Assembly (NCBI RefSeq): GCF_023498005.1
Contig: NZ_CP097289.1
Span: 5,208,001-5,272,000 of the forward strand
DNA: 64,000 nucleotides
From: Streptomyces durmitorensis
GTDB taxonomy: Bacteria; Actinomycetota; Actinomycetes; Streptomycetales; Streptomycetaceae
Direction: 5' to 3'
The notes beneath the pieces were generated by a model. It was given only the letters and a program-made list of their open reading frames with translations. It was not told where the DNA came from and did no database searches. Position 1 is the first letter of the stretch, and each line of letters begins with the position of its first letter. Made by a program: the position numbers and the translations under genes. Shown in pieces: positions 10,591-46,643 of the stretch.

Positions 10591-10618
10591 GAAGATGAGG
10601 AGAAAGGGCCTCGCCTCC

Positions 10619-29674: not shown

Positions 29675-29769
29675 AACGTGGTGAACGTTGGGGGTGGGGG
29701 TGGCATTCCTGGTCCGGTGGTGCGGGGGTGCCGGGTGCGGTGCGGGTCCGTCTGTGGGTGCGGGGCCGA

Positions 29770-29965
29770 GCCGGTATGTCCGTCCTCGCTATCGTCCGGT
29801 GGCCGTGGGGTTGCTTCGGTGGGGGAGCGCCGCGAGCCGTGCTCCGGGCGGACATACCGGCACGTCCCCTCCCGAGCGTCGCCGACTGCGGGGTCACGGG
29901 GGGCGGGCGGGAAAGCAGGTTCGTCCAGGGTCGGATGCGGGGCAATCGGGCGGGTGGGTGGGAAA
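29770..29965 (-). repeat. Composite 196-bp repeat: 92-bp TIR element plus G-rich tail
   Basis: GCCGGTATGTC (29770) and GACATACCGGC (ending 29861) are perfect 11-bp terminal inverted repeats of a 92-bp core. A tail with GATGCGGGGCAATCGGGCGG and GGGTGGGTGGG reaches 29965. Copies of the same length occur at 40.1 and 46.3 kb; this one is the most diverged. The remaining gap bases (29675-29993) hold no gene. Confidence 0.85.
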
Positions 29966-29993
29966 GGCCTGTTCGGCAAGGGGGGGCGGCGGT

Positions 29994-31067
29994 TCAGGCT
30001 CGGCGGAGGTACGCCTGGAGGTTTTCGCGGTCCGAGGCGCGGACGTAACCCGCCCGGAGGGCCACCTGCTGGGAGGCCGTGTTCTCGGGCTCGACGACGG
30101 CCAGGAGGGACCTCACCCCGGGACGGGCCAGAGCCACGGCGGAGAGGGAATCCAGCGCCTCCGAGGCATAGCCGTACCCCCGCGCGCCGACCGCCAGGTC
30201 ATAGCCGACCTCCGCCACCCCCTCCTCGTCCGGCGGCCCATGGAACCCCATCCCGCCGACGGCGACCTCGTCCTCCGCGCGGACCAGCGCGAACATCCCC
30301 CACTCGGGCCGGTGCACCCCGGACGCGTACGCCTTCGTCACCATCTCCGCGGCCGTCCGCGTCCCGTCGAAGGGCCCGCCCTCGATCCACGTCAGACCAC
30401 CCGTGCCGCCCGCGGCGAGATCGGCCGCCGCGGCGGGGGACACCTCCCGCAGGACGATCCGCCCCGCCGGAATCTCCAGGGAGTTGTGCCAGCGCCAGCC
30501 CTCCAGCTTCGGGCGCCCCGCCAGCGTGCCGCGGCCCGTGGCCCAGAGCAGCGTCGCCCACTGCTCCCCGGGCGCCCGCGCGGGCGTGACCTCGGGGAAG
30601 ATCCAGGCGAGCACCGCCTCGCAGAGCGCGGCAGGCGGCTGTGCGTCGACGCCGAGCGCCTGCGCGATGTCGTACGTGTGGAGCAGCACCTCCGCGACGC
30701 CCATCGCCGCGAAGCCCACCGCGTCCGCGCTGCCGGAGGGGTAGGGGTGGTAGCCCCTGACCCCGGACGGAGTGGTCCGCAGCACCGCCGAGAGCAGGCC
30801 GCCGGTCGACTCGATGACGCTGATCGCGTCCTTGGGGCCCGAGCCCTCGTCGAAGGAGATCTCGAAGGGGACCCAGCCGTCCGTCGCCCGTCCCGTCAAC
30901 TGCCCGGCGTACGAGACGAGATCGCACGCGATGTGCTCGGCCGTCTCCAGGCAGCTCCAGTCGAGACCGCCCGCCTTGGCGCTCCAGTCGAGCCCCGCCG
31001 CCGTACGCAGCACCTTCGCCGCGTGTGCCACGGCCTCGTCGAGCTGGTCCCCACCCATGGAAAGCAT
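29994..31067 (-). CDS. DinB/maleylpyruvate-isomerase-like N-domain fused to GNAT acetyltransferase
   Basis: This 357-residue protein joins two domains. Residues about 1-195 resemble the mycothiol-dependent isomerase/DinB fold (LDEAVAHAAKVLRTAAGLDW, SCLETAEHIACDLVSYAGQL). Residues 195-357 are a GNAT domain (WIEGGPFDGTRTAAEMV, GYDLAVGARGYGYASEAL, VEPENTASQQVALRAGYVR). The substrates are unknown. On the minus strand TACGCT (31074-31079) lies 6 nt before ATG 31067, suggesting a leaderless mRNA. Confidence 0.85.
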   Translation of the reverse strand: MLSMGGDQLDEAVAHAAKVLRTAAGLDWSAKAGGLDWSCLETAEHIACDLVSYAGQLTGRATDGWVPFEISFDEGSGPKDAISVIESTGGLLSAVLRTTPSGVRGYHPYPSGSADAVGFAAMGVAEVLLHTYDIAQALGVDAQPPAALCEAVLAWIFPEVTPARAPGEQWATLLWATGRGTLAGRPKLEGWRWHNSLEIPAGRIVLREVSPAAAADLAAGGTGGLTWIEGGPFDGTRTAAEMVTKAYASGVHRPEWGMFALVRAEDEVAVGGMGFHGPPDEEGVAEVGYDLAVGARGYGYASEALDSLSAVALARPGVRSLLAVVEPENTASQQVALRAGYVRASDRENLQAYLRRA

Positions 31068-31087
31068 GGGCCGAGCGTACGGGAGCG

Positions 31088-31747
31088 TCAGGCGCTGAGC
31101 AGGTCCATTTCCGTCGCCAGGTTCGCGCGCGCGGGGCCCTCCCACTCGGCCGCGCCATGCGGGGTGCGGAACAGCTTCGGCAGCGCGAGGAGTTGGCGGA
31201 GCACCGCCGCCCGGCCCGCGCGGAAGTCCTCGTCCGGCACGAAGGCGTACTCCTCGCGGACGGCGGCGGCGTACGCGGCGTACGCGTCCGGGGCCGCGGC
31301 CAGGATCGCCAGGTCGGCGTCGCACAGGGCCTCGCCGTTGTGGTCTCCGTCGGCGGGGTCGTGGGTGAGGGTGAGACGGACCAGGCGGGCCACCTCGGCC
31401 GTGGCCTCGGGCGTCAACCCGGCCTCGTGGAGGGCGCGTTCGGCGAGACGGGCGCTGCGCTCCTCGTTCTCGGAGCGGTCCGGCGCGTACACCGCGTCGT
31501 GGAACCAGGCCGCGAGCCGCACGAGATCGGCGTCGTCCGCGTGCTCCTCCAGTACGTCGATGTGGTCGAGGACCGCCGCCAGGTGGGCGGTGGTGTGGTA
31601 CCGCCGCTGCGGCTCGGCCCAGCGTGCGAGCAGGTTGTCCGCGTAGGGCGCGGGGTCGGGGGCGCCGTCGCTCGCGCGGAGCAGGGTCGCGTGCCAGCGG
31701 GCGCGGAGTTCCTTGTCGTCGTCGTTGTCGTTGTGGTTGTCGGCCAT
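31088..31747 (-). CDS. HD-domain metal-dependent phosphohydrolase
   Basis: This 219-residue protein has RYHTTAHLAAVLDHID, the HD pair WFHDAVY and CDADLAILAA, as in predicted HD-superfamily hydrolases such as YpgQ. It would remove phosphate or pyrophosphate from a nucleotide-like substrate. A TAGAGT box (minus strand, 31754-31759) 6 nt before ATG 31747 suggests a leaderless mRNA. A CsoR-like palindrome lies just upstream. Confidence 0.88.
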   Translation of the reverse strand: MADNHNDNDDDKELRARWHATLLRASDGAPDPAPYADNLLARWAEPQRRYHTTAHLAAVLDHIDVLEEHADDADLVRLAAWFHDAVYAPDRSENEERSARLAERALHEAGLTPEATAEVARLVRLTLTHDPADGDHNGEALCDADLAILAAAPDAYAAYAAAVREEYAFVPDEDFRAGRAAVLRQLLALPKLFRTPHGAAEWEGPARANLATEMDLLSA

Positions 31748-31766
31748 GGGGGGACTCTAAGGGCTC

Positions 31767-31785
31767 ATATACCCCCTGGGGGTGT
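31767..31785. promoter_or_regulatory. CsoR-like copper operator
   Basis: ATATACCCCCTGGGGGTGT contains the perfect palindrome ACCCCC-T-GGGGGT and resembles the CsoR sites at 33647 and 33695. It lies between the divergent HD and mycothiol-enzyme genes. Confidence 0.55.
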
Positions 31786-31837
31786 TCGGTCGTGGCGCCC
31801 CGTTGCCATGAGGGCGGCGGCACGATTGGCTGCCGAC

Positions 31838-32512
31838 ATGACGACCACGAGGACTGACGAGACGCACGACCCCGAGCGCCCGGGGCGCCTCCTGCGCACC
31901 GAACGCGACGCCCTGATACCGCTGTTGAGGGAAGCCGACGACTCCGCGTACGACATCAGGACCTGTTGTCCCGGCTGGACGGTGCGGCATGTGCTCGCGC
32001 ACTGCGGCTCCGCGCTGATGCGGGTGGTCGAGAACCGCTTCGAGGAGGGTGTGTACTCGCCGGAGTCCAACGACCGCGACATCGCCGAGCGTGCCGACTG
32101 GTCCAACTCCCGTGTGGTGGACGAGCTGGAGCGGGGGATGACGGAGGCGGGCGCGATCATGGCCCGCGCGAAGGGGCGCATGGACGGGATCGCGCTCGGC
32201 GAGTGGGTGCACGCGGGGGATGTCCGCGCGGCGTGGGGGAAGCCGGGGGCCTATGGGGGTGCGGGGCTTCCTGATGCGTTGCGGCTGCTCTCGGAGCGCA
32301 GCAGGGTGGTGAAGGCGGTGCCGCTGCACGCGGACATCGACGGCCGCGACGAACCGCTGCTCCTGGGCACGCACGACGGCACCAGCCCCCCGGCCCGCTA
32401 CATCGGCGACGCCCCGACCCTGATACGTCTCTACACGGGACGCCCGCTGACGGGGACACGCTATGAACTGGCGGGCGCGAGGGAGAGCGAACTGTCCACG
32501 ATCTTCAGTTGA
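31838..32512 (+). CDS. Maleylpyruvate-isomerase-family mycothiol-dependent enzyme
   Basis: This 224-residue protein has RLLRTERDALIPLLREADDS, CCPGWTVRHVLAHCGSALM and GEWVHAGDVRAAWG, matching the MDMPI/DinB-like family. These proteins use mycothiol as a cofactor in isomerase, transferase or detoxification reactions. ATG 31838 is taken as the start; ATG 31808 is in frame. Its reaction is unknown. The CsoR-like site upstream suggests that copper may induce it. Confidence 0.85.
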   Translation: MTTTRTDETHDPERPGRLLRTERDALIPLLREADDSAYDIRTCCPGWTVRHVLAHCGSALMRVVENRFEEGVYSPESNDRDIAERADWSNSRVVDELERGMTEAGAIMARAKGRMDGIALGEWVHAGDVRAAWGKPGAYGGAGLPDALRLLSERSRVVKAVPLHADIDGRDEPLLLGTHDGTSPPARYIGDAPTLIRLYTGRPLTGTRYELAGARESELSTIFS

Positions 32513-32576
32513 GTTGAGTTGAGCTGAGCTGAGCCTGAGCATCCTGGGCGGGGGCCCGATCCGCCCCCGCCGAGGC

Positions 32577-33563
32577 CTAGTGCCCGTGCTCGCCGGACTC
32601 GGAGGCGCCGTCGTGCTCCGACGCGGCTTCGCCCGCGCTGCCCGCCGTCACGGTGAACGCCGCCGTTCGCACCTTGCCCTCGTGCTTGAAGTCCAGGAAC
32701 AGGCGGTACGAACCGGGGCTCGGGGCCGTCGCCGCGAAGGAGACTCCGGGGCCCGGCTTGGTCCTGCCGTCGCCCGGTTCGCCGGTGGGGTGCACGTGGA
32801 GGTAGGCCAGGTCGCCGGAGCGCAGGGCCACCAGGTGGCCGTACGAGCCGAGGTAGGGCTGGAGGTCGGTGACCGGCTTGCCGTTCTTCGCCACGTTCAG
32901 GGTCAGGTCGGCGGACTTCCCCGGCTTCAGCTCGCCGTCGAGGCTCACCTCGTAGCCGTCGACCGAAGCCTTCGTGTTGTGCTCGGGAAGGCCCTTCGGC
33001 TCGTACTTCCCCGCCACCGCGAGGTCCGCGCCCAGCGTCAGGCCCTCCTTCGCGCCCTCGGGCTTGAAGTCGGCGAAGACGCGGTAGCCGCCCGCCTCCG
33101 GGAGCTCGACCGGCGTCGACCAGGTGCCGTCCGCCGCGCGGGTCGGGTGCAGGTGGCGGTAGGTCGTCAGGTCGCGTGAGGCGACGATGAGGTGCAGCTC
33201 CTTGTCGTGTTCCGTCTCGTACGCCGTGACGTTCTTGCCCCGGCCGTCCTTGCCCGCGCCGTCCTTGACCACCGCGAACCGCAGCTCCTCGCGCTTGTCG
33301 GCGTCGACGCGTGAGGTCTTCAGGTCGAGCGTGTAGCCGCGCTCGGAGATCTGCAGGCCGCCGGGCACGGCATCCGCGTGGCCCGCGCCGGCGTCCGTAC
33401 CGCCGCCCCCTGGCTCCTCCTTCTCGCCCGTGTGCCCGCCGTGCTCGCTCGCGGGCTTCTTCTCCGCGGTCACGGGGTCGACGCCCTGGCCCACGCCGTA
33501 CGCGGTGCCGAAGGTCGCGGCGACGGCTGCGGCGAAGGCGGTGATCTTCAGTCCGGTGTTCAT
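32577..33563 (-). CDS. Secreted histidine-rich protein, probable copper handling
   Basis: This 328-residue exported protein has a signal peptide (ITAFAAAVAATFGTAYGVG) and His/Glu-rich ends (EHGGHTGEKEE; ESGEHGH). It carries a duplicated domain: YRHLHPTRAADGTW with GYRVFADFKPEG, and YLHVHPTGEPGDG with SYRLFLDFKHEG. The paired HxHPT motifs suggest metal binding outside the cell. It is divergent from copZ-copA across two CsoR sites, so a copper role is likely. ATG 33563 has GGGAG upstream. Confidence 0.82.
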   Translation of the reverse strand: MNTGLKITAFAAAVAATFGTAYGVGQGVDPVTAEKKPASEHGGHTGEKEEPGGGGTDAGAGHADAVPGGLQISERGYTLDLKTSRVDADKREELRFAVVKDGAGKDGRGKNVTAYETEHDKELHLIVASRDLTTYRHLHPTRAADGTWSTPVELPEAGGYRVFADFKPEGAKEGLTLGADLAVAGKYEPKGLPEHNTKASVDGYEVSLDGELKPGKSADLTLNVAKNGKPVTDLQPYLGSYGHLVALRSGDLAYLHVHPTGEPGDGRTKPGPGVSFAATAPSPGSYRLFLDFKHEGKVRTAAFTVTAGSAGEAASEHDGASESGEHGH

Positions 33564-33646
33564 GACGACTCCCATGAGGCGAAGGGGTGAGGCGAAGGGG
33601 CGAGTGAGGTGACCGGTGCGAGCGGTCTCTCCTTACGCCTCCGAAG

Positions 33647-33663
33647 ATACCCCCCTAGGGTAT
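33647..33663. promoter_or_regulatory. CsoR operator 1
   Basis: ATACCCCCCTAGGGTAT is a near-perfect palindrome of the CsoR type (TACCCCCCNGGGGTA). It lies near the promoter of the secreted His-rich gene, on the left side of the divergent region. Confidence 0.82.
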
Positions 33664-33693
33664 GAAGTCAAGCCCGGGATTCCTCTTGCGTTC

Positions 33694-33711
33694 AGTACCC
33701 CCCAGGGGTAT
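33694..33711. promoter_or_regulatory. CsoR operator 2
   Basis: AGTACCCCCCAGGGGTAT is a second CsoR-type palindrome 48 bp from the first. It lies in the copZ-copA promoter region. Confidence 0.84.
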
Positions 33712-33776
33712 ATATGGATCTCGAAGGCGGTACCCACCCCAGGTATCCGACCTGGCCAAGGCCCCAGGAGGCGCTC

Positions 33777-33998
33777 ATGTCCGCGTACACCACCACCTAC
33801 AAGGTCGACGGCGTCCACAGCGCGCACTGCAGGGGAGTCGTCAGCGACGTACTCGGTGCGCTCGACGGAGTGACGGGCGTGCACATCCCCGCGGACGGCA
33901 CCGGCCGCGTCACCGTCACCAGCGCCGCCGAGCCCGACGACGCACGGATCGCGGAGACCGTCGAGGACGCCGGATACGACTACGCCGGCCGCGTCTGA
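33777..33998 (+). CDS. CopZ-like HMA-domain protein with altered metal site
   Basis: This 73-residue protein has the ferredoxin-like heavy-metal-associated fold ([34 protein letters not shown]). The usual MxCxxC copper loop reads VHSAHC, with one cysteine only (Cys18). It is cotranscribed with copA after 52 bp and lies behind a CsoR operator, so it should still belong to the copper system. His may stand in as a ligand. GGAG lies about 7 nt before ATG 33777. Confidence 0.85.
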
Positions 33999-34050
33999 CC
34001 CGCCCGCACCCCCTCCGCAAGCCCGCCCACGACACGAGGAGCCCGCAGCC

Positions 34051-36333
34051 ATGTCCACCACACCCGGCACCCCCGAGGTGGCGTCCACCGCCGAAGTCGA
34101 GCTCGCCATCGGTGGCATGACCTGCGCCTCGTGCGCCGCCCGCATCGAGAAGAAGCTCAACCGCATGGACGGCGTCGAGGCGACCGTCAACTACGCCACC
34201 GAGAAGGCCAAGGTCAGCTACCGCGGCCAGGACATCGCCGTACAGGACCTGATCGCCACCGTCGAGGCCACCGGCTACACCGCGCAGGAGCCCGCCCCGG
34301 CCGGCACCGAGGAGTCGGACCCGGGCGACGACGAGCGGCGGGCCGACGACGAACTGCGGCCCCTGCGCGAGCGGTTGATCACGGCGGTCCTGCTCTCCGT
34401 GCCCGTCGTCGCGATGGCGATGATCCCGGCCCTCCAGTTCGAGTACTGGCAGTGGCTCTCGCTGACCCTCGCGGCGCCGGTCGTGACGTACGCGGCCTGG
34501 CCCTTCCACAAGGCCGCTTTCACGAACGCGCGGCACGGCGCGGCGACGATGGACACGCTGATCTCGGTCGGCACTTCGGCCGCGTTCATCTGGTCGCTGT
34601 GGGCGCTGTTCTTCGGCACGGCCGGTACGCCCGGCATGACGCACCCCTTCGAGCTGACCATCTCCCGCTCGGACGGCGCGGGGAACATCTACCTGGAGGC
34701 CGCGGCGGGCGTCACCGCCTTCATCCTGGCCGGGCGGTACTTCGAGGCCCGCTCCAAGCGCAAGGCGGGCGCCGCCCTGAAGGCGCTGCTCCAGCTGGGC
34801 GCCAAGGACGTCACGGTCCTGCGCGACGGTGGGCGTGAAGAGACCATCCCCGTAAGCGACTTGAAGACCGGCGACCGCTTCCTCGTCCGCCCCGGCGAGA
34901 AGATCGCCACCGACGGCAAGGTCGTCGAGGGCGCGTCCGCCGTCGACGCCTCCATGCTCACCGGCGAGTCCGTGCCGGTCGAGGTCGCCAAGGGCGACGC
35001 GGTCACCGGAGCCACCCTGAACGTGGGCGGACGCCTCGTCGTCGAAGCCACCCGCGTCGGCGCCGACACCCAACTGGCCAGGATGGCCAAGCTCGTCGAG
35101 GACGCGCAGAACGGCAAGGCGGCGGCCCAGCGCCTGGCCGACAAGATCTCGGCCGTCTTCGTGCCGGTCGTCATCGCGCTGGCCGTCGCCACCCTCGGCT
35201 TCTGGCTCGGTAACGGCTCCGGTCTGACGGCGGCCTTCACCGCCGCGGTCGCCGTGCTGATCATCGCCTGCCCCTGCGCCCTGGGTCTCGCGACACCGAC
35301 CGCCCTCATGGTCGGCACCGGACGCGGCGCCCAGCTCGGCATCCTGATCAAGGGCCCGGAGGTCCTGGAGACGACCCGCAAGGTCGACACGATCGTCCTG
35401 GACAAGACCGGCACCGTCACCACCGGCAAGATGACGCTGCTCGCCACGCACGTCGCGGACGGCACCACCGAGGACGAAGTCCTGCGCCTGGCAGGGGCGT
35501 TGGAGCACTCCTCGGAGCACCCCATCGCCCAGGCGGTGGCCACCGGCGCGGCCGCACAGGTCGGCACGCTGCCCGTCCCCGAGGACTTCGCGAACGTGGC
35601 GGGCCTGGGTGTGCAGGGCATCGTCGAGGGCCACGCGGTGCTCGTCGGCCGCGAGGCTCTGCTCAAGGAGTGGGCGATCGGGCTCCCCGTGGAGCTGGAG
35701 CGGGCGAAGGCCGAGGCCGAGGCGGCCGGGCGTACGGCGATCGCGGTCGCCTGGGACGGCGAGGCCCGCGCGGTCCTGGAGGTGGCGGACGCGGTCAAGG
35801 ACACGAGCCCGGAAGCCATCCGCCGCCTCCGCGCTCTCGGCCTCACGCCCATCCTCCTGACCGGCGACAACAAGGCGGTCGCGGCATCGGTGGCCGCCGA
35901 GGTCGGCATCGCTCCGCAGGACGTGATCGCGGAGGTCATGCCGCAGGACAAGGTGGACGTCGTCAAGCGCCTCCAGGCGGAGGGCCGCAGCGTGGCCATG
36001 GTCGGCGACGGCGTGAACGACGCGGCGGCCCTCGCCCAGGCCGACCTGGGTCTGGCGATGGGCACGGGCACGGACGCTGCGATCGAGGCGGGCGACCTGA
36101 CCCTCGTACGAGGAGACCTGCGGGCCGCGGCGGACGCCATCCGCCTCTCCCGCCGCACCCTCGGCACGATCAAGTCGAACCTGTTCTGGGCCTTCGCCTA
36201 CAACGTGGGCGCACTGCCACTGGCCGCCGCGGGCCTCCTGAACCCGATGATCGCGGGCGCCGCGATGGCCTTCTCCTCGGTCTTCGTGGTCGGCAACAGC
36301 CTGCGCCTGAGGGGGTTCAAGCCGCTGAGCTGA
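34051..36333 (+). CDS. copA: Copper-exporting P1B-type ATPase
   Basis: This 760-residue pump has an N-terminal HMA domain ([17 protein letters not shown], Cys25/Cys28) and eight expected membrane helices. The Cu+ ligand motif CPC is at 407-409 and the phosphorylation site DKTGT starts at Asp451. SSEHPIA in the nucleotide domain and [12 protein letters not shown] at the hinge complete the set. It exports Cu+ from the cytoplasm. GAGG precedes ATG 34051. It shares an operon with copZ and CsoR-type control. Confidence 0.96.
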
Positions 36334-36390
36334 ACGCCGAGGGGGCACTTGCCCGAACCTGCGGCAAGGTCGGCGTGTACATGTCTCTAC

Positions 36391-36427
36391 GATCACCCCG
36401 GTGCGCTTGGGTCGCGCCGGGGTGATC
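36391..36427 (+). terminator. Strong hairpin after copA
   Basis: GATCACCCCGGTGCG pairs with CGCGCCGGGGTGATC over 15 bp around a 7-nt loop, 58 bp after the copA stop. Confidence 0.85.
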
Positions 36428-36444
36428 TGCGCGTAGGCTGGGTA

Positions 36445-36460
36445 ATTGGACTAGACCTAT
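36445..36460. promoter_or_regulatory. Candidate DasR (dre) site upstream of cutC
   Basis: ATTGGACTAGACCTAT matches AGTGGTCTAGACCACT at 12 of 16 positions, with the core CTAGACC intact. It lies in the promoter region of cutC and not near an aminosugar gene. Confidence 0.5.
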
Positions 36461-36526
36461 GTGCGGCGGCTTCGGAGACTTCTGCGATGCCCGCCCCCGC
36501 GGACCCGGACCCGAAGGAAGACATCC

Positions 36527-37216: not shown

Positions 37217-37289
37217 TCCCATACCGCGGGCCGCTTGATCGTATTCTCCGCGGGACGGGATACAACTGGGCCTACGGGGAGAGAACTTC

Positions 37290-37856: not shown

Positions 37857-37872
37857 ACCGCCCCGCTCTCGC

Positions 37873-39915
37873 CTAGCGGGCGAGCTGCTCGGGAAGCGCG
37901 GCCGAGTGCACGACGGTGAGCCCCGAGACGGCACGGGTCAGGGCGACGTACAGCCGCCTGAGCCCGGTCCGCTCGTCGGGCTCGCCGTCCACGACGGCCG
38001 CAGGCTCGTCGAGTACGACATAGTCGTACTCAAGTCCCTTGGCGAGGGAGGCGGGCACGAGGGTGAGCCGGGTGTCGGGGGTGGTCTCCTCACCGGGCGA
38101 GAGGTACGTCATCCCGGCGGCGTCCAGTGCTTCGGCGAGCGCGGGTACGCGCGCGTCGGCGGCGATGAGCCCGATGGACCCCTCCTGCCGCAGCGACTCG
38201 ACGCAGGCTTCGAGGGCAGCGGCGTCGAGGTCGTCCACGGGCCGCACCACGAGTGAACCCGCCGACTCACGCACGGACTTCACCTCGGCGAGGCCGGGCG
38301 CGATGGAGGGAAGCAGCCGGGAGGCGAACGCGATCACTTCCCGGGGCACACGGAACCCCGCGGTGAGCTCCTCCACCACGGCATCGCCCTTCCCCAGATG
38401 GTCGAGGGCCTGCTCCCAACTGCGGGTGGCCCACGGGGTGGTGCCCTGCGCGAGGTCGCCGAGGACGGTGGCGGATCCGGTGGTGCAGCGGCGCCCGACG
38501 GCGCGGTACTGCATCGGGGAAAGATCCTGCGCCTCGTCCAGGACGACATGCCCGAGCGAATGGGTCCGGGCCACGAGATCGCTGGCCTCGTCGATCAACA
38601 CGGCATCGGCGGCGGACCACTTGACGGCCTTCAGGCTCCGCGCGGGCTTGGCCCAGAGGATGAGCTTCTGCTCGTCGGCGTCGAGGATCCCCTCCGCGTG
38701 CACGGCGAGGAACTCGGCATCGGAGAGCAGCCGCAGCACGAGCTTGGCGGGATCGACGGGCGGCCACACGGCCTTGACGGCGGCCTTCACGGCGGGGTTG
38801 CGGGCGACGGCATCCTGTACGCGGTCGTCCGGTGCCTCGCCGGCCTGTTCCATGCGGACGAGCACGGCGTGGGCGATGCGCTGGGGCAGGGCGTCGCGGG
38901 CGGCGCCGTACCGAATGTCGCGAGCGAGCAACTCCCCGACGATCTCTTCGAGTTCGTAGGCGGGAACGCGCCAACGCCGGGACCCACGCACCACTACGAC
39001 GGGCTCGCCGGGCATGCTCACATGGGACCGCAGGGCTCTGCGCAGAACGTCGGCCATGCGGGCGTCGCCCTTGATGACGGCGGCGGGCGCGTCGTCCGTC
39101 CCCCGTACGTCGACGTGGGCGACGAGGTCGTCGACCGTCGCCTGCTTGACCTCCAACTCACCTAGAGCGGGCAGGACTTGCTCGATGTAGTGCAGGAAGG
39201 ACTTGTTGGGCCCGATGACCAGGGTCCCGGTCCGGGCGAGGCGCTCGCGGTGGGCGTAGAGCAGATAGGCGACACGGTGTAGGCCGACGGCGGTCTTCCC
39301 GGTGCCGGGCCCGCCCTGAACGCAGACGGACCCCCCGAGCCCGCTCCGGACGATCTCGTCCTGCTCGGGCTGGATGGTGGCGACGATGTCGCGCATGGGT
39401 CCGACGCGGGGCCGCTCGATCTCCTGCTGGAGCAGCTTGCTGGTCTGCTCCTTCTCGTCGGCGTCGCTGAGGTGTTCGTCCTCGTACGCGGTGAGGTCAC
39501 CGCCGGTGTATCCGAACCGCCGCCGCAGGCCGATGTCCATCGGGGCCTTCTTGGAGGCGCGGTAGAAGGGCTGCGAGACGGGGGCGCGCCAGTCGATGAC
39601 CATGGGGTCGCCGTCGGCGTCGTGGACGTGCCGCCGCCCGATGTAGAACTGCTCTCCCTCGGCGCCTTCGGCCTGGTCGGCGCCGGGGGCGTGGAGATAG
39701 TCGAGCCGCCCGAAGAAGAGGGGGGTGTGGGACAGGTCGGCGAGGGACTTGATCCGGTCGTCGATCTGGCTCTGCAGGACGGCGGCGTTGACCCAGTTCG
39801 CGGTGACGTCGCGGATGTCGAGCGCCTCGGCGTCCTCGCGCATGGCTCTCAGGGCCGAGCGGGACGCGGAGAGGTGGTTCCGCTCTCGGGAGAGCGGGTC
39901 GGGGTGGGCGTGCAC
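37873..39915 (-). CDS. HelD-like RNA-polymerase-associated ATPase
   Basis: This 680-residue UvrD/Rep-like protein has a helical N-terminal arm, LFFGRLDYLHAPG, the Walker A GGPGTGKTAVG, Walker B/motif II VVLDEAQDLSP and the C-terminal motif RRLYVALTRAV. HelD proteins pry stalled RNA polymerase off DNA; the HelR branch also gives rifampicin tolerance. GTG 39915 has GGAGG about 6 nt upstream. I found no rifamycin-associated inverted repeat upstream, so HelD rather than HelR is the safer name. Confidence 0.9.
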   Translation of the reverse strand: MHAHPDPLSRERNHLSASRSALRAMREDAEALDIRDVTANWVNAAVLQSQIDDRIKSLADLSHTPLFFGRLDYLHAPGADQAEGAEGEQFYIGRRHVHDADGDPMVIDWRAPVSQPFYRASKKAPMDIGLRRRFGYTGGDLTAYEDEHLSDADEKEQTSKLLQQEIERPRVGPMRDIVATIQPEQDEIVRSGLGGSVCVQGGPGTGKTAVGLHRVAYLLYAHRERLARTGTLVIGPNKSFLHYIEQVLPALGELEVKQATVDDLVAHVDVRGTDDAPAAVIKGDARMADVLRRALRSHVSMPGEPVVVVRGSRRWRVPAYELEEIVGELLARDIRYGAARDALPQRIAHAVLVRMEQAGEAPDDRVQDAVARNPAVKAAVKAVWPPVDPAKLVLRLLSDAEFLAVHAEGILDADEQKLILWAKPARSLKAVKWSAADAVLIDEASDLVARTHSLGHVVLDEAQDLSPMQYRAVGRRCTTGSATVLGDLAQGTTPWATRSWEQALDHLGKGDAVVEELTAGFRVPREVIAFASRLLPSIAPGLAEVKSVRESAGSLVVRPVDDLDAAALEACVESLRQEGSIGLIAADARVPALAEALDAAGMTYLSPGEETTPDTRLTLVPASLAKGLEYDYVVLDEPAAVVDGEPDERTGLRRLYVALTRAVSGLTVVHSAALPEQLAR

Positions 39916-40057
39916 GGGGTGCCTCCGGCGGGGTGCGGGGTCTGGGGCCGGCCGGTTGCCGTCCGGTCGGCGCGGGCGCGTTGCACGCGGGCAGACCGGG
40001 CATTTTATGCCCCCCTGCATGGCGGGGCCACCGAATTCCCCCCGGGGGGGGCGGGCC

Positions 40058-40140
40058 TCTCCCACCCACCCACCCGTCACCCCGCATCCGCCCCTCGCCG
40101 AACATGCTTTCCCGCCCACCCACCCGTTACCCGGTAGTCG
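40058..40140 (-). repeat. G-rich tail of composite repeat (minus strand)
   Basis: Two CCCACCCACCC blocks (40058-40073 and 40115-40127) around CATCCGCCCCTCGCCGAACA are the reverse complement of 46438-46511. Together with the adjoining 92-bp core they form the 196-bp composite repeat in the opposite orientation to the 46.3-kb copy. Confidence 0.85.
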
Positions 40141-40609
40141 GCGACGCTCGTGAGGGGGCGTGCCGGTATGTCTGCCCGGAGCACGGTTCGCGGCGCTCCA
40201 GCGGCGAAGTAGCTGCGCGGCCACCGGACGATAGCGAGGACGGACATACCGGCGCGGCCCCGCCCGCAAGACGGACCAGCCCCGCAGTGCGAGTGCACCC
40301 GCAGTCGGCGGCGCTCGTGAGGGGGCGTGCCGGTATGTCTGCCCGGAGCACGGTTCGCGGCGCTCCAGTAGCGAAGTAGCTACGCGGCCACCGGACGATA
40401 GCGAGGACGGACATACCGGCGCGGCCCCGCCCGCAAGACGGACCAGCCCCGCAGTGCGAGTGCACCCGCAGTCGGCGGCGCTCGTGAGGGGGCGTGCCGG
40501 TATGTCTGCCCGGAGCACGGTTCGCGGCGCTCCAGCGGCGAAGTAGCTACGCGGCCACCGGACGATAGCGAGGACGGACATACCGGCGCGGCCCCGCCCC
40601 CCCCGCAGA
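40141..40609. repeat. Tandem 167-bp repeat, three copies, each with a 92-bp TIR core
   Basis: GCCGGTATGTC starts at 40162, 40329 and 40496, giving an exact 167-bp period. Each core ends with GACATACCGGC 92 bp later. Copies differ at only a few bases in the middle (for example CAGCGGCGAAGTAGC or CAGTAGCGAAGTAGC). Inner arms such as GGAGC/GCTCC make the core strongly foldable. No gene is present in 39916-40650. Confidence 0.92.
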
Positions 40610-40637
40610 CGGAGCCGTTCCGCGGGGTGAGATCTAC

Positions 40638-40643
40638 TAGGGT
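40638..40643 (+). promoter_or_regulatory. Leaderless -10 box (TAGGGT)
   Basis: TAGGGT ends 7 nt before GTG 40651 of the GT87 gene and lies directly after the tandem repeat. Confidence 0.5.
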
Positions 40644-40650
40644 CGCCGCC

Positions 40651-41991
40651 GTGAAGGCACCCACTGTGAGCAACTGGTCACGTTACGCAAAGGCCCCCGC
40701 GCCAGCAGCCGCCCTGCTCGCAGTCTCCCTCGCCGCCCTCGCCACCCTCTGCGTAGCCCAACGCATCCCCATGGCCGACACCCTCGTCTACCGAGCCGAA
40801 GGCGCCGCCGTCGTCAGTGGGAGCGATCTCTACGGGTTCACCGTCACCGAGTGGGACCTCCCGGCCACCTACCCGCCCTTCGCCGCCATCCTCTTCGTAC
40901 CCACCACCTGGCTCCCCCTCCCCGCCCTCAAGCTCACCTTCCTCATCGGCAACGTCGTCCTCCTCGCCCTCCTCGTCCACCTCTCCTGCCGCCTCGCCGA
41001 TCTCCCCACTCGTCTCATCCCGCTCTTCACCGCCCTCGCCCTCTGGTTCGAGCCCGTCTTCCAGACCCTCCTCTTCGGGCAGATCAACCTCGCCCTCGCC
41101 TGCCTGATCCTCTGGGACCTCACCAGAGCACCCGGCGCCGTCGGCAAGGGCTTCGCGATCGGTGTCGCCGCCGGGATCAAGCTCACCCCGGCCGTCTTCA
41201 TCGCGTACCTCTTCCTCACCCGGCGCGTACGCGAAGGGCTCACCGCCACCGCCGCCCTCACCGGCACCCTCGCGCTCGGCGCGCTCGTGCTCCCCGCCGC
41301 CAGCCTCGACTTCTGGACCCACCGGATCTTCGAGACGGGCCGCGTCGGCAAGGCGTGGATCGTCGACAATCAGTCGCTGCAAGGGCTCGTCGCCCGCCTC
41401 GCCCACGACCCGCACCCGGGGCTCCTCTGGGCCGTCCCGGCCGCCCTCACCGCCGCCGCAGGCCTGTGGCTGGCAAGCCGCCGCACCACCAGCGAAGCCC
41501 GCGGCGTCCTCCTGACGGCCGCCACCGCGCTCCTCGTCTCGCCCATCAGCTGGTCCCACCACTGGGTCTGGTGCGTCCCGCTCCTGGCCCTGCTCATGGC
41601 AGAGGGCCGCCCCCGCCTGACCGCGGCGGTGGCGACCCTCTTCACGGCCCGCACCCTGTGGCTCGTCCCGCACCAGGGCGACCTGGACCTACGACTCCCT
41701 CACTGGCAACAGCCCTTGGCGTCGCCCTACACCCTGCTGGCCCTCGTGATCATGGCCGCACTCAGTTGTCGGCAAGCAGCTCGTCCGCGTCCACGATCCG
41801 GTACGCGTACCCCTGCTCCGCAAGGAACCGCTGCCGATGCGCCGCGAAGTCCTGGTCGATGGTGTCCCGGGCCACGACGGAGTAGAAGCGGGCCTCATGA
41901 CCGTCGGCCTTCGGACGCAGCACACGACCGAGCCGCTGTGCCTCCTCCTGCCGGGAGCCGAACGTCCCGGACACCTGGATCGCGACCGTAG
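40651..41991 (+). CDS. GT87-family membrane glycosyltransferase (DUF2029)
   Basis: This multi-spanning protein has the GT87 pattern: ADTLVYRAEGAAVVSGSDLY, ATYPPFAAILFVP, LLFGQINLALACLILWDL and ISWSHHWVWCVPLL. Relatives use polyprenyl-phosphate mannose or arabinose to build cell-envelope glycans. The family part ends near residue 370 (about 41762). The frame then runs 77 codons further with poor GC3, antisense to the 3' end of the XPB gene, which suggests that the original stop was lost. GTG 40651 is chosen from the leaderless promoter. Confidence 0.85.
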   Translation: MKAPTVSNWSRYAKAPAPAAALLAVSLAALATLCVAQRIPMADTLVYRAEGAAVVSGSDLYGFTVTEWDLPATYPPFAAILFVPTTWLPLPALKLTFLIGNVVLLALLVHLSCRLADLPTRLIPLFTALALWFEPVFQTLLFGQINLALACLILWDLTRAPGAVGKGFAIGVAAGIKLTPAVFIAYLFLTRRVREGLTATAALTGTLALGALVLPAASLDFWTHRIFETGRVGKAWIVDNQSLQGLVARLAHDPHPGLLWAVPAALTAAAGLWLASRRTTSEARGVLLTAATALLVSPISWSHHWVWCVPLLALLMAEGRPRLTAAVATLFTARTLWLVPHQGDLDLRLPHWQQPLASPYTLLALVIMAALSCRQAARPRPRSGTRTPAPQGTAADAPRSPGRWCPGPRRSRSGPHDRRPSDAAHDRAAVPPPAGSRTSRTPGSRP

Positions 41992-43405
41992 CCTCGGGCA
42001 GGTCGATCGAGAAGTTCGCGACCTTCGAGACGACGAGGACGGAGATCTCGCCCTCCCGGAACGCGCCGAACAGCTTCTCGCGCTGCGCGTTCGTCGTCTC
42101 GCCCTTGATGACGGGCGCGTCCAGGTGCTCGCCCAGCTCGTCCAGCTGGTCGATGTACTGCCCGATGACCAGGGTCTGTTCGCCCGCGTGCTTCTTGACC
42201 AGCGCCTCCGTCACCTTCCGCTTCGTGGCGGTCGTGGCGCAGAAGCGGTACTTCTCCTCGGCCTCGGCCGTCGCGTACGCGAGGCGCTCCGAGTCCGTCA
42301 GATTGACCCGCACCTCGACGCAGTCGGCGGGCGCGATGTACCCCTGCGCCTCGATCTCCTTCCACGGAGCGTCGAACCGCTTGGGCCCGATGAGGGAGAA
42401 GACGTCGGACTCCCGGCCGTCCTCCCTCACCAGCGTCGCCGTCAGGCCGAGCCGCCGCCTGGCCTGGAGGTCGGCGGTGAACTTGAAGACGGGGGCGGGG
42501 AGCAGGTGCACCTCGTCGTAGATGACAAGGCCCCAGTCCCGGGAGTCGAAGAGCTCCAGGTGCGGATAGACACCCTTCCGCTTCGTCGTCAGGACCTGGT
42601 ACGTGGCGATGGTGACGGGCCGGATCTCCTTGCGGGTCCCGCTGTACTCGCCGATCTCTTCCTCGGTCAGCGAGGTCCGCTTGATCAGCTCGTGCTTCCA
42701 CTGCCTGGCGGAGACCGTGTTGGTCACCAGGATCAGCGTGGTCGCCTTGGCCTCGGCCATCGCACCGGCGCCCACCAGCGTCTTGCCGGCGCCACAGGGC
42801 AGCACGACCACACCGCTGCCGCCGTGCCAGAACCCCTCGACCGCCTGCTTCTGATACGGCCGCAGCGCCCAGCCGTCCTCCGCGAGCTCGATGCGGTGCG
42901 CCTCGCCGTCGACGTACCCGGCGAGGTCCTCGGCGGGCCAGCCCAGCTTCAGGAGGGTCTGCTTGACCTGCCCGCGCTCGGAGGGGTGGACGACGACGGT
43001 GTCCGCGTCCACCCGCTCACCGACGAGCGGCTGCACCTTCTTGGAGCGGAGGATCTCCTCCAGGACCGGACGGTCGGTGGTGGTCAGGACGAGGCCGTGC
43101 GTGGGGTGCTTCGAGAGGGTGAGCCTGCCGTAGCGCGCCATCGTCTCGGCGATGTCCACGAGCAGCGCGTGCGGCACGGGATAGCGGGAGAACTCCACCA
43201 GGGCGTCCACGACCTGCTCCGCGTCGTGCCCGGCGGCACGGGCGTTCCACAGGCCGAGCGGCGTCACGCGGTAGGTGTGGATGTGCTCGGGAGCACGCTC
43301 CAGCTCCGCGAAGGGCGCGATGACTCGGCGGCAGGCGTCGGCCTGCTCGTGGTCGACCTCGAGCAGGAGAGTCTTGTCCGACTGGACGATCAGGGGACCA
43401 TTCAC
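41762..43405 (-). CDS. XPB/Ssl2-family DNA helicase
   Basis: This 547-residue SF2 helicase has an N-terminal XPB-specific part (PLIVQSDKTLLLEVDHEQAD), then RPYQKQAVEGFW, Walker A LPCGAGKTLVG, the DEVH box (IYDEVHLLP), LGLTATLVREDG and the late motif SRQEEAQRLGRVLRP. Bacterial XPB unwinds DNA 3'-5' and is thought to work in repair. GTG 43405 follows AAAGGG. The gene behind it (Helicase_C_3) is its usual neighbour in actinobacteria. Confidence 0.94.
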   Translation of the reverse strand: MNGPLIVQSDKTLLLEVDHEQADACRRVIAPFAELERAPEHIHTYRVTPLGLWNARAAGHDAEQVVDALVEFSRYPVPHALLVDIAETMARYGRLTLSKHPTHGLVLTTTDRPVLEEILRSKKVQPLVGERVDADTVVVHPSERGQVKQTLLKLGWPAEDLAGYVDGEAHRIELAEDGWALRPYQKQAVEGFWHGGSGVVVLPCGAGKTLVGAGAMAEAKATTLILVTNTVSARQWKHELIKRTSLTEEEIGEYSGTRKEIRPVTIATYQVLTTKRKGVYPHLELFDSRDWGLVIYDEVHLLPAPVFKFTADLQARRRLGLTATLVREDGRESDVFSLIGPKRFDAPWKEIEAQGYIAPADCVEVRVNLTDSERLAYATAEAEEKYRFCATTATKRKVTEALVKKHAGEQTLVIGQYIDQLDELGEHLDAPVIKGETTNAQREKLFGAFREGEISVLVVSKVANFSIDLPEATVAIQVSGTFGSRQEEAQRLGRVLRPKADGHEARFYSVVARDTIDQDFAAHRQRFLAEQGYAYRIVDADELLADN

Positions 43406-43482
43406 GCGCGCACCCTTTCGGTAAGCCAAACGTCCAGTGTGCCGCATGGCGCGTGAATACGTTCCGGCCTCAGGCTGCGGGC

Positions 43483-46116
43483 TCAGTCGTCCGCCAGCTC
43501 CGCGACCCCCGTGACCCGGTGCAGGGGGTAGGTGCGGACCTCGTCCGCCGTGTGGTCGTACGCCGTGACGAAGCCGCCCTCCACGCGGATCGGGGCGATC
43601 ACGCGCTGGCTCGCCGAGCCCTCCGCGTTGACGTAGCCGATCCACACCGCCTCGCCCGTCAGGACCGCGGCCTGCATCGTGGCGAGGGTCTCCGACGCCG
43701 TCGTGCGGGGCAGCGTGTCGCCGGTCTCCGGGGCTGCCTTGCGGGGCGCCGTCGAGGCCAGGTCGCCCGCGCGGATGGCGCGCACGGCCGCACCGATCAG
43801 CGTGGCGTCGGCCAGCGGGGGGCCGTCGTGGACCGGCTCGGGCGCGGTGCGGGGCGGCGAGCGGTGGGCGTGCGCCCGGGTGATCAGTACGTCGCCCTCG
43901 GCGCTCTCCGCCGCGGGCGCGAAGCCCATCGAGCGCAGGCCTTCGAGGAGGGCCCCGGGGTCGGCCTGCGCGGCGAGCACGGTCGGCGCGAGGCGGCGCA
44001 GGCGCAGGTTCTGGGAGCGCTTGTCGGCGAGGATCTCGTTCAGGAGGGCCTCGTCGTCGCAGCGTACGTACGCGGATGCGGCGCCGATCCGCAGGTGGCC
44101 GTGTTTACGGGCCACGTCGTCGATGAGGTACGCGAGCGGCTGCGGAACCGGCGTACGGGAGTGTGCGGCGAGGAAGGCGTGCAGGTCGGAGGCGGCCTTG
44201 CCCGCGTCGAGCGCGCGCCGCACGGAGCCGGGTGTGAACCGGTACACCGTCGCCCCGCCCTTCGACTCGACGTCGGCGAGCACGGCGAGCGTCTCGGCCA
44301 GCGGGCGCTCCAGGGGGCCGGGGGCCACGGCCGTGAGGTCGGCCTGGAGCAGGACGTGGTCGAGCGGCTCGGGGAGCAGGGGGGCGAGGAGGCGGGCGGC
44401 TCTCGCTCCGGAGACGGCGAGTTCGGCGGCGGAGGGGGGTGTGGCGTGGGTGGGCTGAGCGGTGTGGGTGGTGTGAGCGGTGTGAGCGGCGGGGGTGGTG
44501 TGGGTGGCGTGGGTGGCTGTTGTTCGTGTGGTGGGACCCTCGTCCTCGCTTTCGGAGCCGAGCAGCGCCCGGCCGTGCGCGGACAGCGCCCCGCGGCCCG
44601 TGATCCCCAGCAACTCCGCTTCGTTCAGCGTCCATTGGGCGATGCGGGCCCGCAGCTCCATGGGCGCGTTGGCGGCCGGGGCGTGGGTGGAAACGCCTCC
44701 GGCGGACGCGCCGCCCCCGGCCGAGCCGCGCGGCGGTCGCTCCCATCGCAGGCGCGCGAGGATCGACTCGGGCGTCGGGCTCGCGCCGTCCGGCAGGGTG
44801 GTGAGGAGCGTGAGCACCCGGTGCCTGATCTCCGGCGCCGACGAGCGGTCCAGGTGCGGGCCGAGCGCCGACAGCGTGCGGTCCTTGCCGTCACGGCCGC
44901 CGATCAGGCCCGCGGTGCGGGTCGCCGTCAGCCAGGCCGTGGCGAGGACCGACCAGCGCTCGGGGGCGGGCAGTTCCTGCCAGTCGTCGTACGCGGGTGT
45001 CGCCGCGTACCGCTCGTCCGCGTCGCCGTCCGGCGCCACGAGGCCCGCAGCGTAGGCCAGTTCGACCCAGAACGCCGCCACCGGCTCCGGTACGTCGAGG
45101 GCCACCGCCGTGCGCTTCAGGTCGCGCACGCTGAGGCCGCCCGCGCGCAGCACGGTGGGGCCGCCCTCGTCCCAGTCCTTCAGGAGCTCCTCGACCGTGT
45201 CGAGCGCCATGTACGCCTGGCTCGCCGCCGCGGCGTCCACAGCCTGTGGACGGTGTTCGCGCAGCGGCTCGACGGCTGGGGGTACCGGTTCGAGCACCCG
45301 GTGCGCGCGGCCCGCGCGCAGGTGGAGAGCGGCTTCGCGGGGGAGTACGACGGTGCCGGGCGAGGTGGGAAGCAGGAGCCCGCGGTCGAGGAGCCAGCGC
45401 AGGTGGCGGGCCGGGTCGGCGGTGACCTGGCCGTAGGGCGGGCCCCAGACGAGCCGTGAGAGCACCTCGACGGACTCCGCGGGGGCCTCGTCGAGCAGCG
45501 CGGACATGCGGGTGCGGTCCGCGAAGAGCTCGGTGAGGGACTTGACCGCCGAGACCGCGTCGTGGGTGGAGGGGAGCCCGGCCGCCGCCACGATGTCCTG
45601 CATGCGGTTCGGCGACATGCCCGCGGTGGCTTCGGCGACGGTGGGGCCGAGGCCGGTGGGGGAGGGGTACTGCGGGGCGGGGGCGAGGAGTTCGCGTGCG
45701 GTGCGGACCAGGCGGATGCGGTCCTCGGCGCCCCAGGTGAGGGCCTGCTCGCGGAGGGTGGCGAGGGCGCGGCCGAGCGCGGCGTCGACGGTGGCGCGGC
45801 CTCGCCCTTGCTCGACTCCTTGCTCGTCCCCGGCGACGAGGGCGTGCAGCTCTTCGTACGTGGCCGGTTCCGGGGCCACGGCGAGCGCCTCGGCGACCTG
45901 CTGGGCGAACCGGTCGAGCCGCTCCAGGGCGCGGACGACGGAGGCGCGGGTGGCCGCGCGGGTCGCGAGCTGGGTGAGGTCGTTCGGGACCGGGGTGAGG
46001 AGGTCGGGGCGGGCGTGGAGCAGCGCACCGAGGGACGCGTCGTCGCGGGACCGGAGTGCCTCGGCGAGGGACCGGGGTGTGTCCGCTGGGCGCTGGGGCT
46101 GCTCGTCGGTGCTCAT
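43483..46116 (-). CDS. Helicase_C_3 / WYL-type XPB-associated protein
   Basis: This 877-residue protein lies 78 bp upstream of the XPB helicase on the same strand. The N-terminal half is helical (LAEALRSRDDASLGALLHAR). A Thr/His/Ala-rich linker (about residues 525-560) precedes the Helicase_C_3 domain (DHVLLQADLTAVAPGPL, VYRFTPGSVRRALDAG). The end resembles a WYL domain (IGYVNAEGSASQRVIAPIRV, FVTAYDHTADEVRTYPLHR). No helicase motor motifs are present. On the minus strand TACCGT (46124-46129) 7 nt before ATG 46116 suggests a leaderless mRNA. Confidence 0.87.
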   Translation of the reverse strand: MSTDEQPQRPADTPRSLAEALRSRDDASLGALLHARPDLLTPVPNDLTQLATRAATRASVVRALERLDRFAQQVAEALAVAPEPATYEELHALVAGDEQGVEQGRGRATVDAALGRALATLREQALTWGAEDRIRLVRTARELLAPAPQYPSPTGLGPTVAEATAGMSPNRMQDIVAAAGLPSTHDAVSAVKSLTELFADRTRMSALLDEAPAESVEVLSRLVWGPPYGQVTADPARHLRWLLDRGLLLPTSPGTVVLPREAALHLRAGRAHRVLEPVPPAVEPLREHRPQAVDAAAASQAYMALDTVEELLKDWDEGGPTVLRAGGLSVRDLKRTAVALDVPEPVAAFWVELAYAAGLVAPDGDADERYAATPAYDDWQELPAPERWSVLATAWLTATRTAGLIGGRDGKDRTLSALGPHLDRSSAPEIRHRVLTLLTTLPDGASPTPESILARLRWERPPRGSAGGGASAGGVSTHAPAANAPMELRARIAQWTLNEAELLGITGRGALSAHGRALLGSESEDEGPTTRTTATHATHTTPAAHTAHTTHTAQPTHATPPSAAELAVSGARAARLLAPLLPEPLDHVLLQADLTAVAPGPLERPLAETLAVLADVESKGGATVYRFTPGSVRRALDAGKAASDLHAFLAAHSRTPVPQPLAYLIDDVARKHGHLRIGAASAYVRCDDEALLNEILADKRSQNLRLRRLAPTVLAAQADPGALLEGLRSMGFAPAAESAEGDVLITRAHAHRSPPRTAPEPVHDGPPLADATLIGAAVRAIRAGDLASTAPRKAAPETGDTLPRTTASETLATMQAAVLTGEAVWIGYVNAEGSASQRVIAPIRVEGGFVTAYDHTADEVRTYPLHRVTGVAELADD

Positions 46117-46218
46117 CAGGGCCACGGTAGCGGGTTGGGGTGCGGTGCCGGGCGTTCCTGGCGGTGGTCCGGGCGTGGGGTGGGGTGCGGGGGGCCGACG
46201 CGGGTCTGTCTTGGGTGC

Positions 46219-46285
46219 GGGGCCGCGCCGGTATGTCCGTCCCCTCGCGAGCGGTCCCGACTACCGGGTAACGGGCGGGCGGGCG
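46219..46285 (+). repeat. Internally deleted copy of the 92-bp repeat
   Basis: GCCGGTATGTCCGTCC runs directly into CTCGCGAGCGGTCCCGACTA and CCGGGTAACGGGCGGG. The left arm of the core is thus joined to the tail, with the rest of the core missing. It lies just before the full copy. Confidence 0.75.
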
Positions 46286-46315
46286 GAACCGCTTCGTCTG
46301 TGGGTGCGGGGCCGT

Positions 46316-46511
46316 GCCGGTATGTCCGTCCTCGCTATCGTCCGGTGGCCGCGGGGCTGCTTCGCTGCTGGAGCGCCGCGAACCGTGCTCCGGGCAGACA
46401 TACCGGCACGTCCCCTCACGAGCGTCGCCGACTACCGGGTAACGGGTGGGTGGGCGGGAAAGCATGTTCGGCGAGGGGCGGATGCGGGGTGATCGGGCGG
46501 GTGGGTGGGAA
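46316..46511 (+). repeat. Composite 196-bp repeat, inverted relative to 40.06-40.25 kb
   Basis: The 92-bp core spans 46316-46407 (GCCGGTATGTC to GACATACCGGC), followed by a tail with GGGTAACGGGTGGGTGGGCG and GATCGGGCGGGTGGGTGGG. By eye it is about 95% identical to the reverse complement of 40058-40253. Nothing gene-like is seen in 46130-46643. Confidence 0.92.
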
Positions 46512-46643
46512 GGCTTGGGCGGGGGCTTTGCTGGCGGGGGCGATCAAGGGGCAGGAGTGGGGCGCCCCCGCCAGGAGAAGGTAACGTCGACTCACCGGGT
46601 ACAACGGGCGGCTCGTCAACGGGGCCGCCCCGGAGGGGACTTC

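Follow-up and report, generated by a model that had tools for sequence, protein, structure and literature searches.

The window studied here, a stretch of 64,000 nucleotides (C1:5208001-5272000) from the 9.86 Mb genome of Streptomyces durmitorensis, carries several copies of a short palindromic element, and raises the question of what this element is and what it does to the DNA in which it lies. Bacterial palindromic repeats are usually seen as passive or as substrates of a transposase. Here, the repeat is tied to a directional footprint in the neighbouring genes, and the copies of one species change together at inherited sites. An initial annotation of the window described five cores of 92 bp and one deleted copy, and proposed a miniature inverted-repeat transposable element (MITE), a REP-type element or a structured RNA. 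We tentatively propose, at somewhat less than an even chance, that the element is a REP/ERIC-like palindromic repeat that acts as a polar site at which single-stranded DNA is exposed again and again, most simply because the site breaks, its upstream end is resected and another copy serves as template for the repair.

Results

The element and its copies

The five cores in the window are each bounded by the exact arms GCCGGTATGTC and GACATACCGGC, at the coordinates and in both of the orientations originally described, copies 1 and 5 being on the plus strand and copies 2-4 on the minus strand (Table 1). The 11-mer arm, with at most one mismatch, has 15 occurrences in the window where 1.15 would be expected, and none of 100 shuffles reached 15. 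The sixth copy (46219/46227) was rightly called internally deleted; it has a single 5' arm at 46227 and, judged by eye, looks like the product of a deletion between two CGTCC microhomologies.

The family extends well beyond the window, to the rest of the genome, where the further copies sought after the initial annotation were found, and to other Streptomyces. Both perfect 11-bp arms (pattern with N60-85 between them) occur at 46 places in the whole genome, and a reversed control pattern occurs at none. The core is 92 bp long at 43 of these places and 93 bp at 3. A sequence-only model, built from the alignment of the 46 exact copies and used with a cut-off of 68 bits on 150 scored candidates, identifies 65 near-full copies in the host genome. 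These group into 45 clusters, 34 single and 11 in the form of tandem arrays of 2 to 5, in which exact copies are spaced by 166-168 bp. Apart from the copies, no half element was found in the host genome (E <= 0.1, 150 candidates scored), only truncated copies beside copies. In another genome, G064, a tandem array of four 3' half-elements repeats every 67 bp or so (L107, 1233-1489). One copy, at L175, is directly adjoined by a long (CAGA/CTGT)n microsatellite near 3130-3180.

The unit exceeds the 92-bp core. Its conserved 5' flank ends in GGGGCGGGGCCG, and its conserved 3' flank resembles CGTCCCCTC..CGAGCGCTGCCGACTGCG. Directly after the 3' arm, CGTC is found in 43 of the 46 aligned copies and CGCC in 3; the resemblance to the tag of REPs, GTAG or CGTC at one end, may be a chance match. 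The copies were said to lie always between genes, which is nearly right: 3 of the 43 clusters examined overlap a gene predicted by our home-made, composition-based gene caller. The element was also said to have no open reading frame of its own. A frame that begins with an ATG in the arm (MSVLAI...) is in fact open through the core in 41 of the 46 copies. A coding reading of this conserved frame was nevertheless rejected, since a stop interrupts it within the core of 5 of the 46 copies and the 93-bp copies shift the frame.

The stem can be described as comprising about 24 positions, with a closing GGGG/CCCC and a conserved junction motif. Three of its positions carry a mismatch or wobble in most copies, namely C.U in 65, C.A in 49 and U.G in 65 of 80, the U.G pair being the one next to the junction. 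Covariation, a check suggested by the initial annotation, was analysed in 80 matches of the sequence-only model from 71 chosen loci (8 of them from S. durmitorensis); a set of 85 rows filtered for the stem was left out because it had been selected for pairing. We observe that the two sides of the stem change together: changes on both sides are found in 10 of 24 stem pairs, and the covariation score is 0.193, whereas shuffles give 0.060, none of 500 attaining the observed value, and slid controls reach at most 0.053. Such compensatory changes could also come from correction between the arms or from ends that change together.

A one-sided strand-skew footprint

The direction of the element is unrelated to that of the adjacent genes, as 13 of 43 clusters point with them, 13 against them, 10 lie between convergent and 7 between divergent genes. 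It follows instead the G-rich strand of the flanks, in 38 of 45 clusters at 300-2900 bp. On the upstream side of the 45 clusters, the element strand has an excess of G and a shortage of C, and this skew decays over 20 bp to 3 kb, with GC skews in successive bins of +0.313 (20-150 bp), 0.238, 0.213, 0.154, 0.132, 0.083, 0.074 and 0.018 (2.5-3 kb). At 300-600 bp (0.213), 45/45 clusters are positive. Near the element, T is also in excess upstream on the element strand. Beside the element, the downstream skew is 0.076, and at 2.5-3 kb it is 0.035 (p 0.01); elsewhere, save at 300-600 bp, it is about zero. Between 150 and 1500 bp the upstream side exceeds the downstream side in all 45 clusters, with a mean of 0.167 versus a maximum of 0.033 in 2000 random sets; choosing the orientation so as to maximise the value raises the random maximum to 0.065 (300 sets).

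The GC skew at third codon positions (GC3 skew) of genes on the upstream side is +0.119 when they lie on the element strand (57 genes) and -0.243 when they lie on the opposite strand (54 genes). On the downstream side the values are -0.134 (57 genes, same strand) and -0.08 (53 genes, opposite strand), and the background is -0.148 (321 genes). As the upstream-side GC3 skew shifts whichever way the genes point, the footprint is not one of gene orientation. In the window, the zones upstream of the clusters have the signs expected from the orientation of the element (Table 1). In related genomes, the skew at 300-600 bp upstream is positive for 13 of 14 copies in G304, 10/10 in G117 and 8/8 in G271. 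Sites that S. durmitorensis shares with G304 have a stronger footprint (0.212 versus 0.153, p 0.027).

A second, G-rich repeat, with a unit of about 54 bp by eye (CGGGCGGGTGGGTGGGAAAG..TTCGTCCAGGGGCGGATG) and G-quadruplex-like runs, often stands beside the palindrome. We considered these repeats as the true origin of the skew and rejected them: at 17 sites away from elements, 15 of them usable, the pattern is two-sided and convergent. At single junctions in the background of S. durmitorensis (L356, L360, L362, L363 and L366) they occur as inverted neighbours, minus then plus.

Comparison with an element-poor relative

The sister genome G147 is nearly free of the element, having two decayed matches and a match to a 49-bp fragment. 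At six of its orthologous sites without the element, the upstream skew is 0.144, 0.161, 0.167, 0.117, 0.089 and 0.138, and that of S. durmitorensis is higher at 6/6 sites. Changes at these six sites were polarised by parsimony, with G304 (about 13% away) as sole outgroup and G147 as sole element-poor species. Upstream, C>T:G>A changes number 46:26 in S. durmitorensis (p 0.024) versus 16:68 in G147 (Fisher p 1e-8 between lineages), and C>G:G>C changes 61:44 versus 45:98 (Fisher p 3e-5). The downstream contrasts, drawn from five regions, are less marked or run the other way (p 0.009 and 0.10). G304 is also without the element at four of the six sites and has a copy at the other two, L186 and L166, where the skew of G147 may be a relic of lost elements. 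Based on the higher skew at 6/6 sites, the contrast in substitutions between the lineages and the stronger footprint at shared sites, the skew persists at sites that carry the element and fades in G147.

Concerted evolution

The mean distance between copies is 0.175 within S. durmitorensis and 0.137 within G304, versus 0.293 between the two genomes. Pairing copies by orthologous site brings no gain in similarity, as the 18 such pairs average 0.292 and random pairs 0.293. Copies from one tandem array differ by 0.120, those from different arrays by 0.176. At nine diagnostic columns each genome has its own, nearly fixed letter (62-64 of 65 copies in S. durmitorensis, 13-14 of 14 in G304), and at shared loci these letters follow the genome and not the site. 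The S. durmitorensis copy at 5140348, a relic, has the G304 letter at 9/9 diagnostic columns, and the copy at 4491774 retains two G304 letters, which form one stem pair. Among site pairs, 72% show four-gamete conflicts, which become less frequent when the two sites lie close together (PHI-like permutation p 0.011). Judged from their sequences, the copies within a genome appear to be homogenised, that is, to evolve in concert at shared sites, and exchange or conversion between copies would be the homogenising step.

Shared, empty and lost sites

By alignment coordinates, 11 of the 14 known G304 copies occupy the same gene junction, in the same orientation, as a copy in S. durmitorensis; the remaining 3 match no cluster fetched from this genome. 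Five copies from G117 or G271 appear to lie at shared junctions too (L333, L334, L335; L342, L346), with one flank longer or rearranged at L333 and L334. We estimate that far fewer than one shared junction is expected by chance. A tree of seven genomes from 1,545 aligned columns reads ((S. durmitorensis, G147) 99, G304) 100. If the 11 shared sites are ancestral, the ancestor of G147 would have had at least 11 copies. Because the tree joins S. durmitorensis with G147 and leaves G304, which has copies, outside, G147 most simply lost the element at the shared loci L186 and L166, at which no remnant of it was found in G147.

Other sites point to gain. At a junction whose genes were named by eye as rpf and rsmA, the intergenic sequences of the 12 relatives read contain no copy, and the junction measures 214 bp in S. 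durmitorensis versus 39 bp in G147; both G147 and G304 keep the G-rich repeat there without the palindrome. In an ABC-transporter operon, also named by eye (L163, about 2950-3190), the insert divides two genes that nearly abut or overlap in G147, which has no insert at all and therefore represents an empty site. As to the target-site duplication that the initial annotation suggested looking for, this one site has, by eye, a possible diverged duplicate of about 15 bp flanking the insert, which is at best suggestive. Taken from these comparisons of sequence, many copies probably stay at inherited sites, some appear to have been gained, and copies can be purged.

The gene order between the two inverted clusters of the window at 40.6-46.2 kb is rearranged in G117 (L347/L348), in which the flanks of the two clusters meet at a single element. 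This junction fits recombination between copies, although with more than one rearrangement needed.

Distribution and status of the family

The family consists of Streptomyces non-coding interspersed palindromes with a common frame, whose stem letters differ between genomes. The outer-frame pattern is found in 18 of 392 Streptomyces genomes, S. durmitorensis included, with interiors that differ by genome, and the model search (E 1e-6) matches at least 16 of the 392, again including S. durmitorensis. Copy counts outside the host genome are lower bounds, as the 9 best candidates were scored per genome. In a sample of 61 genomes from genus to class level, only S. durmitorensis and, weakly, G022 and G024 match (E 0.001). 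A pattern of 27 fixed bases, searched in a collection of 84,980 named species that possibly lacks the S. durmitorensis genome, gave 35 stretches, all titled Streptomyces; the species are Streptomyces huasconensis, atriruber, alfalfae and silaceus and strains WAC 01529, G44 and MZ04. No element was found in plasmids and phages (blastn with one copy as query) or in viral contigs (pattern).

The family has no match in Rfam, where 7 loci gave none at E 1 or below. Among the titles and abstract beginnings listed from open-licence PMC literature, none describes it, in agreement with the view of the initial annotation that this is not a described family. The word Streptomyces is absent from the main texts of PMC3733652, PMC12306157, PMC2267715 and PMC8049555, and occurs once, within a reference, in PMC1590033. 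The passages seen of PMC4681348, on S. coelicolor, do not describe the palindrome family.

Discussion

When a strand is exposed as single-stranded DNA time after time, deamination of its cytosines and bypass replace C by T and G on that strand. In the mechanism that we favour, the palindrome would extrude or fold and then be cut. The upstream end would be resected 5' to 3' over 1-2 kb, so that the DNA 5' of the copy, read on the CTCGCTATCG strand, would repeatedly become single-stranded on the CTCGCTATCG strand. The exposed strand would lose cytosine by deamination, C changing to T and, via bypass of abasic sites, to G. The break would be repaired from another copy, whereby the interior would be converted and the family homogenised. 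Resection of the 5' strand of the upstream end would expose exactly the strand that loses C and would fit the skew, and repair from another copy would give a homogenised family. As a guess, the conserved 3' flank could shield the downstream end, hence the one-sidedness. The sequences show the family, the covariation of its stem, the shared positions, the letters diagnostic of each genome, the one-sided decaying skew and the relaxation of this skew in the one element-poor relative examined. From these we infer the break with the extrusion and cutting of the palindrome, the resection, the deamination and the homogenising role of conversion. In its fullest form, the genome would have dozens of programmed-looking polar fragile sites that are recurrently cut, resected upstream and repaired from a copy, with a homogenised family and a directional mutation pressure on the neighbouring genes, from C to G and from C to T, over about 2 kb; this extended picture is possible, and we hold it to be rather doubtful.

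Several known systems offer comparisons. ERIC and NEMIS are bacterial palindromic elements of 100-150 bp, and the present element resembles them in general description, namely in length class, imperfect palindromy, intergenic location and lack of coding capacity. We know of no report of a kilobase skew for ERIC, NEMIS and similar elements. With REP/REPIN and RAYT systems the element shares a non-coding, intergenic and palindromic nature and many copies; REPIN populations are described in PMC8049555 as persisting for millions of years, and evolution by gene conversion was reportedly raised for REPs by Higgins in 1988. However, its 92-bp core is far longer than the 20-40 bp given for REPs in PMC3733652, it has a one-sided footprint on the kilobase scale, and its diagnostic letters are nearly fixed per genome at shared sites. 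The REP-type proposal of the initial annotation is broadly right in kind, as this is a palindromic interspersed repeat, but the RAYT-type Y1 transposase (PF01797) has 0 matches in the host genome, in a search that was positive in 5 of 14 control genomes.

Inverted repeats are known to cause rearrangements. A 246-bp palindrome in E. coli gives rearrangements controlled by SbcCD and RecA (PMC3315005), and in yeast, breaks at inverted repeats raise mutation up to 8 kb away, which is ascribed, as a hypothesis, to single-stranded regions (PMC3681665). These palindromes were introduced and are longer, and in yeast both sides are affected, whereas the Streptomyces pattern is evolutionary and one-sided. 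Strand-specific mutation of the flanking DNA, the mark of a fragile palindrome, is found here, with counter-evidence on the downstream side and at element-free sites.

Several observations speak against breakage and copy repair. The break, resection and repair are steps that we infer, and none was observed. A two-ended break predicts the opposite skew downstream, where only a faint -0.058 is seen at 300-600 bp (p 0.007). The near-downstream skew is positive in 7 of 8 copies of G271. The 16 near-clade loci also reach 0.087 between 150 and 300 bp downstream (p 0.03), the upstream side being still stronger. Both sides are skewed in 4 class-B loci and in 23 distant-class loci, a set that is not independent, with most orientations set by eye from the flanks, and that was left unused as evidence. 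The element-free orthologous sites are also positive upstream, mostly more weakly, and part of the skew may predate the element. In the S. durmitorensis lineage, the excess of C>G over G>C is by itself non-significant (p 0.12), much of the contrast between lineages consists of G147 losing G, and downstream C>T:G>A also differs (30:22 versus 22:44 in G147, p 0.009). The comparison rests on one element-poor species, one distant outgroup, six sites and the home-made gene caller. As to homogenisation, the orthologous pairs have no significant locus signal (permutation p 0.12), and r-squared linkage does not decay over distance (p 0.61). One measure of stem covariation is weak, further pair types being barely raised (25 versus 22, equalled in 43 of 500 shuffles), and the shared sites might also go back to independent gains.

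The footprint could instead be a property of the site, if a passive REP/ERIC-like repeat preferred, in one orientation, places that were already strand-skewed. The G-skew upstream of the six element-free sites of G147 (0.089-0.167) points in this direction, as do the G-rich repeats of another family that stand without the palindrome at rpf-rsmA in G147 and G304. However, the gradient centres on the element, with 45/45 clusters in agreement at 300-600 bp, S. durmitorensis exceeds G147 at 6/6 sites, the skew is being lost in G147, and the footprint is stronger at sites shared with G304. Moreover, G304 has a copy at L186 and L166, so G147 probably lost these two and the skew there may be a relic. 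We regard this explanation as rather unlikely. A lower probability is given to a polar process of replication or transcription (a fork barrier, an R-loop or an antisense transcript ending at the element) that would expose the single strand without breakage. An excess of G, with T near the element, is the sign of a leading or non-template strand, and the length of the footprint resembles that of an Okazaki fragment. However, the orientation hardly follows the chromosome arm (29 of 45, p 0.07, with the midpoint taken as origin), the skew is equal for arm-consistent (0.163) and arm-inconsistent (0.175) copies, and it is independent of gene direction, all of which make such a process unlikely.

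Two proposals of the initial annotation bear on the element itself. Mobilisation as a MITE, in which the element would carry the ends of the DDE or other transposase that moves it, would agree with the empty ABC-transporter site of G147 and its possible flanking duplicate, and with arms that change together, as ends recognised by a transposase would. However, the unit extends beyond its inverted repeats, with conserved sequence outside both, left-right differences persist in the form of the C.U and C.A mismatches, half elements are lacking away from copies in the host genome, and no Y1 transposase was detected there, DDE transposases not having been searched for. We consider a MITE improbable. 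The open reading frames between one inverted pair (1803652/1804881), examined as a possible transposase gene, appear unrelated, by eye only. Slightly less probable still is a structured RNA that would be produced from the element strand and work in cis or in trans. It gains from the strong covariation of the pairs and from the conserved U.G beside the junction. However, outside the three mismatch columns the modelled strand has 13 G.U versus 34 A.C cells, which are not independent events, and an RNA of this strand is therefore not favoured; gene orientation shows no bias, Rfam gives no match, and the kilobase skew would be left unexplained.

If breakage and copy repair are real, break repair, gene conversion and localised mutation could be studied at about 45 natural polar fragile sites of one Streptomyces chromosome. 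If breakage is not the cause, the skew would still have to be explained, being present at all 45 clusters and fading in the one relative examined that lost elements.

Features of the window

The elements of the window, their upstream zones and the neighbouring G-rich repeats are listed in Table 1.

Table 1 Coordinates of the palindromic element and associated features in the window.
Feature	Position	Strand	Details
92-bp core, copy 1	29770..29861	+	exact arms; profile match 29758-29873
Approximate full unit, copy 1	29754..29890	+	about 16 nt conserved 5' flank, core, about 29 nt conserved 3' flank; flank conservation in 46 copies, ends by eye
92-bp core, copy 2, first of three-copy tandem (period 167)	40162..40253	-	exact arms, profile match
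92-bp core, copy 3 (tandem)	40329..40420	-	exact arms, profile match
92-bp core, copy 4 (tandem)	40496..40587	-	exact arms, profile match
Internally deleted copy	46213..46256	+	model positions 2-43; 5' flank and arm apparently fused to 3' flank via CGTCC microhomology
92-bp core, copy 5	46316..46407	+	exact arms, profile match
Upstream G-rich, C-poor zone of copy 1	28400..29757	+	plus-strand GC skew +0.19 to +0.28
Upstream zone of minus-strand tandem	40600..42400	-	plus-strand skew -0.23, -0.29, -0.18, -0.10
Upstream zone of copy 5	43600..46200	+	plus-strand skew +0.08 to +0.22
G-rich repeat beside palindrome	40000-40150, 46260-46530, 29880-30000		

Elsewhere in the window, a SAM riboswitch (RF00162, 77.9 bits) is located at 10467-10601 on the plus strand.

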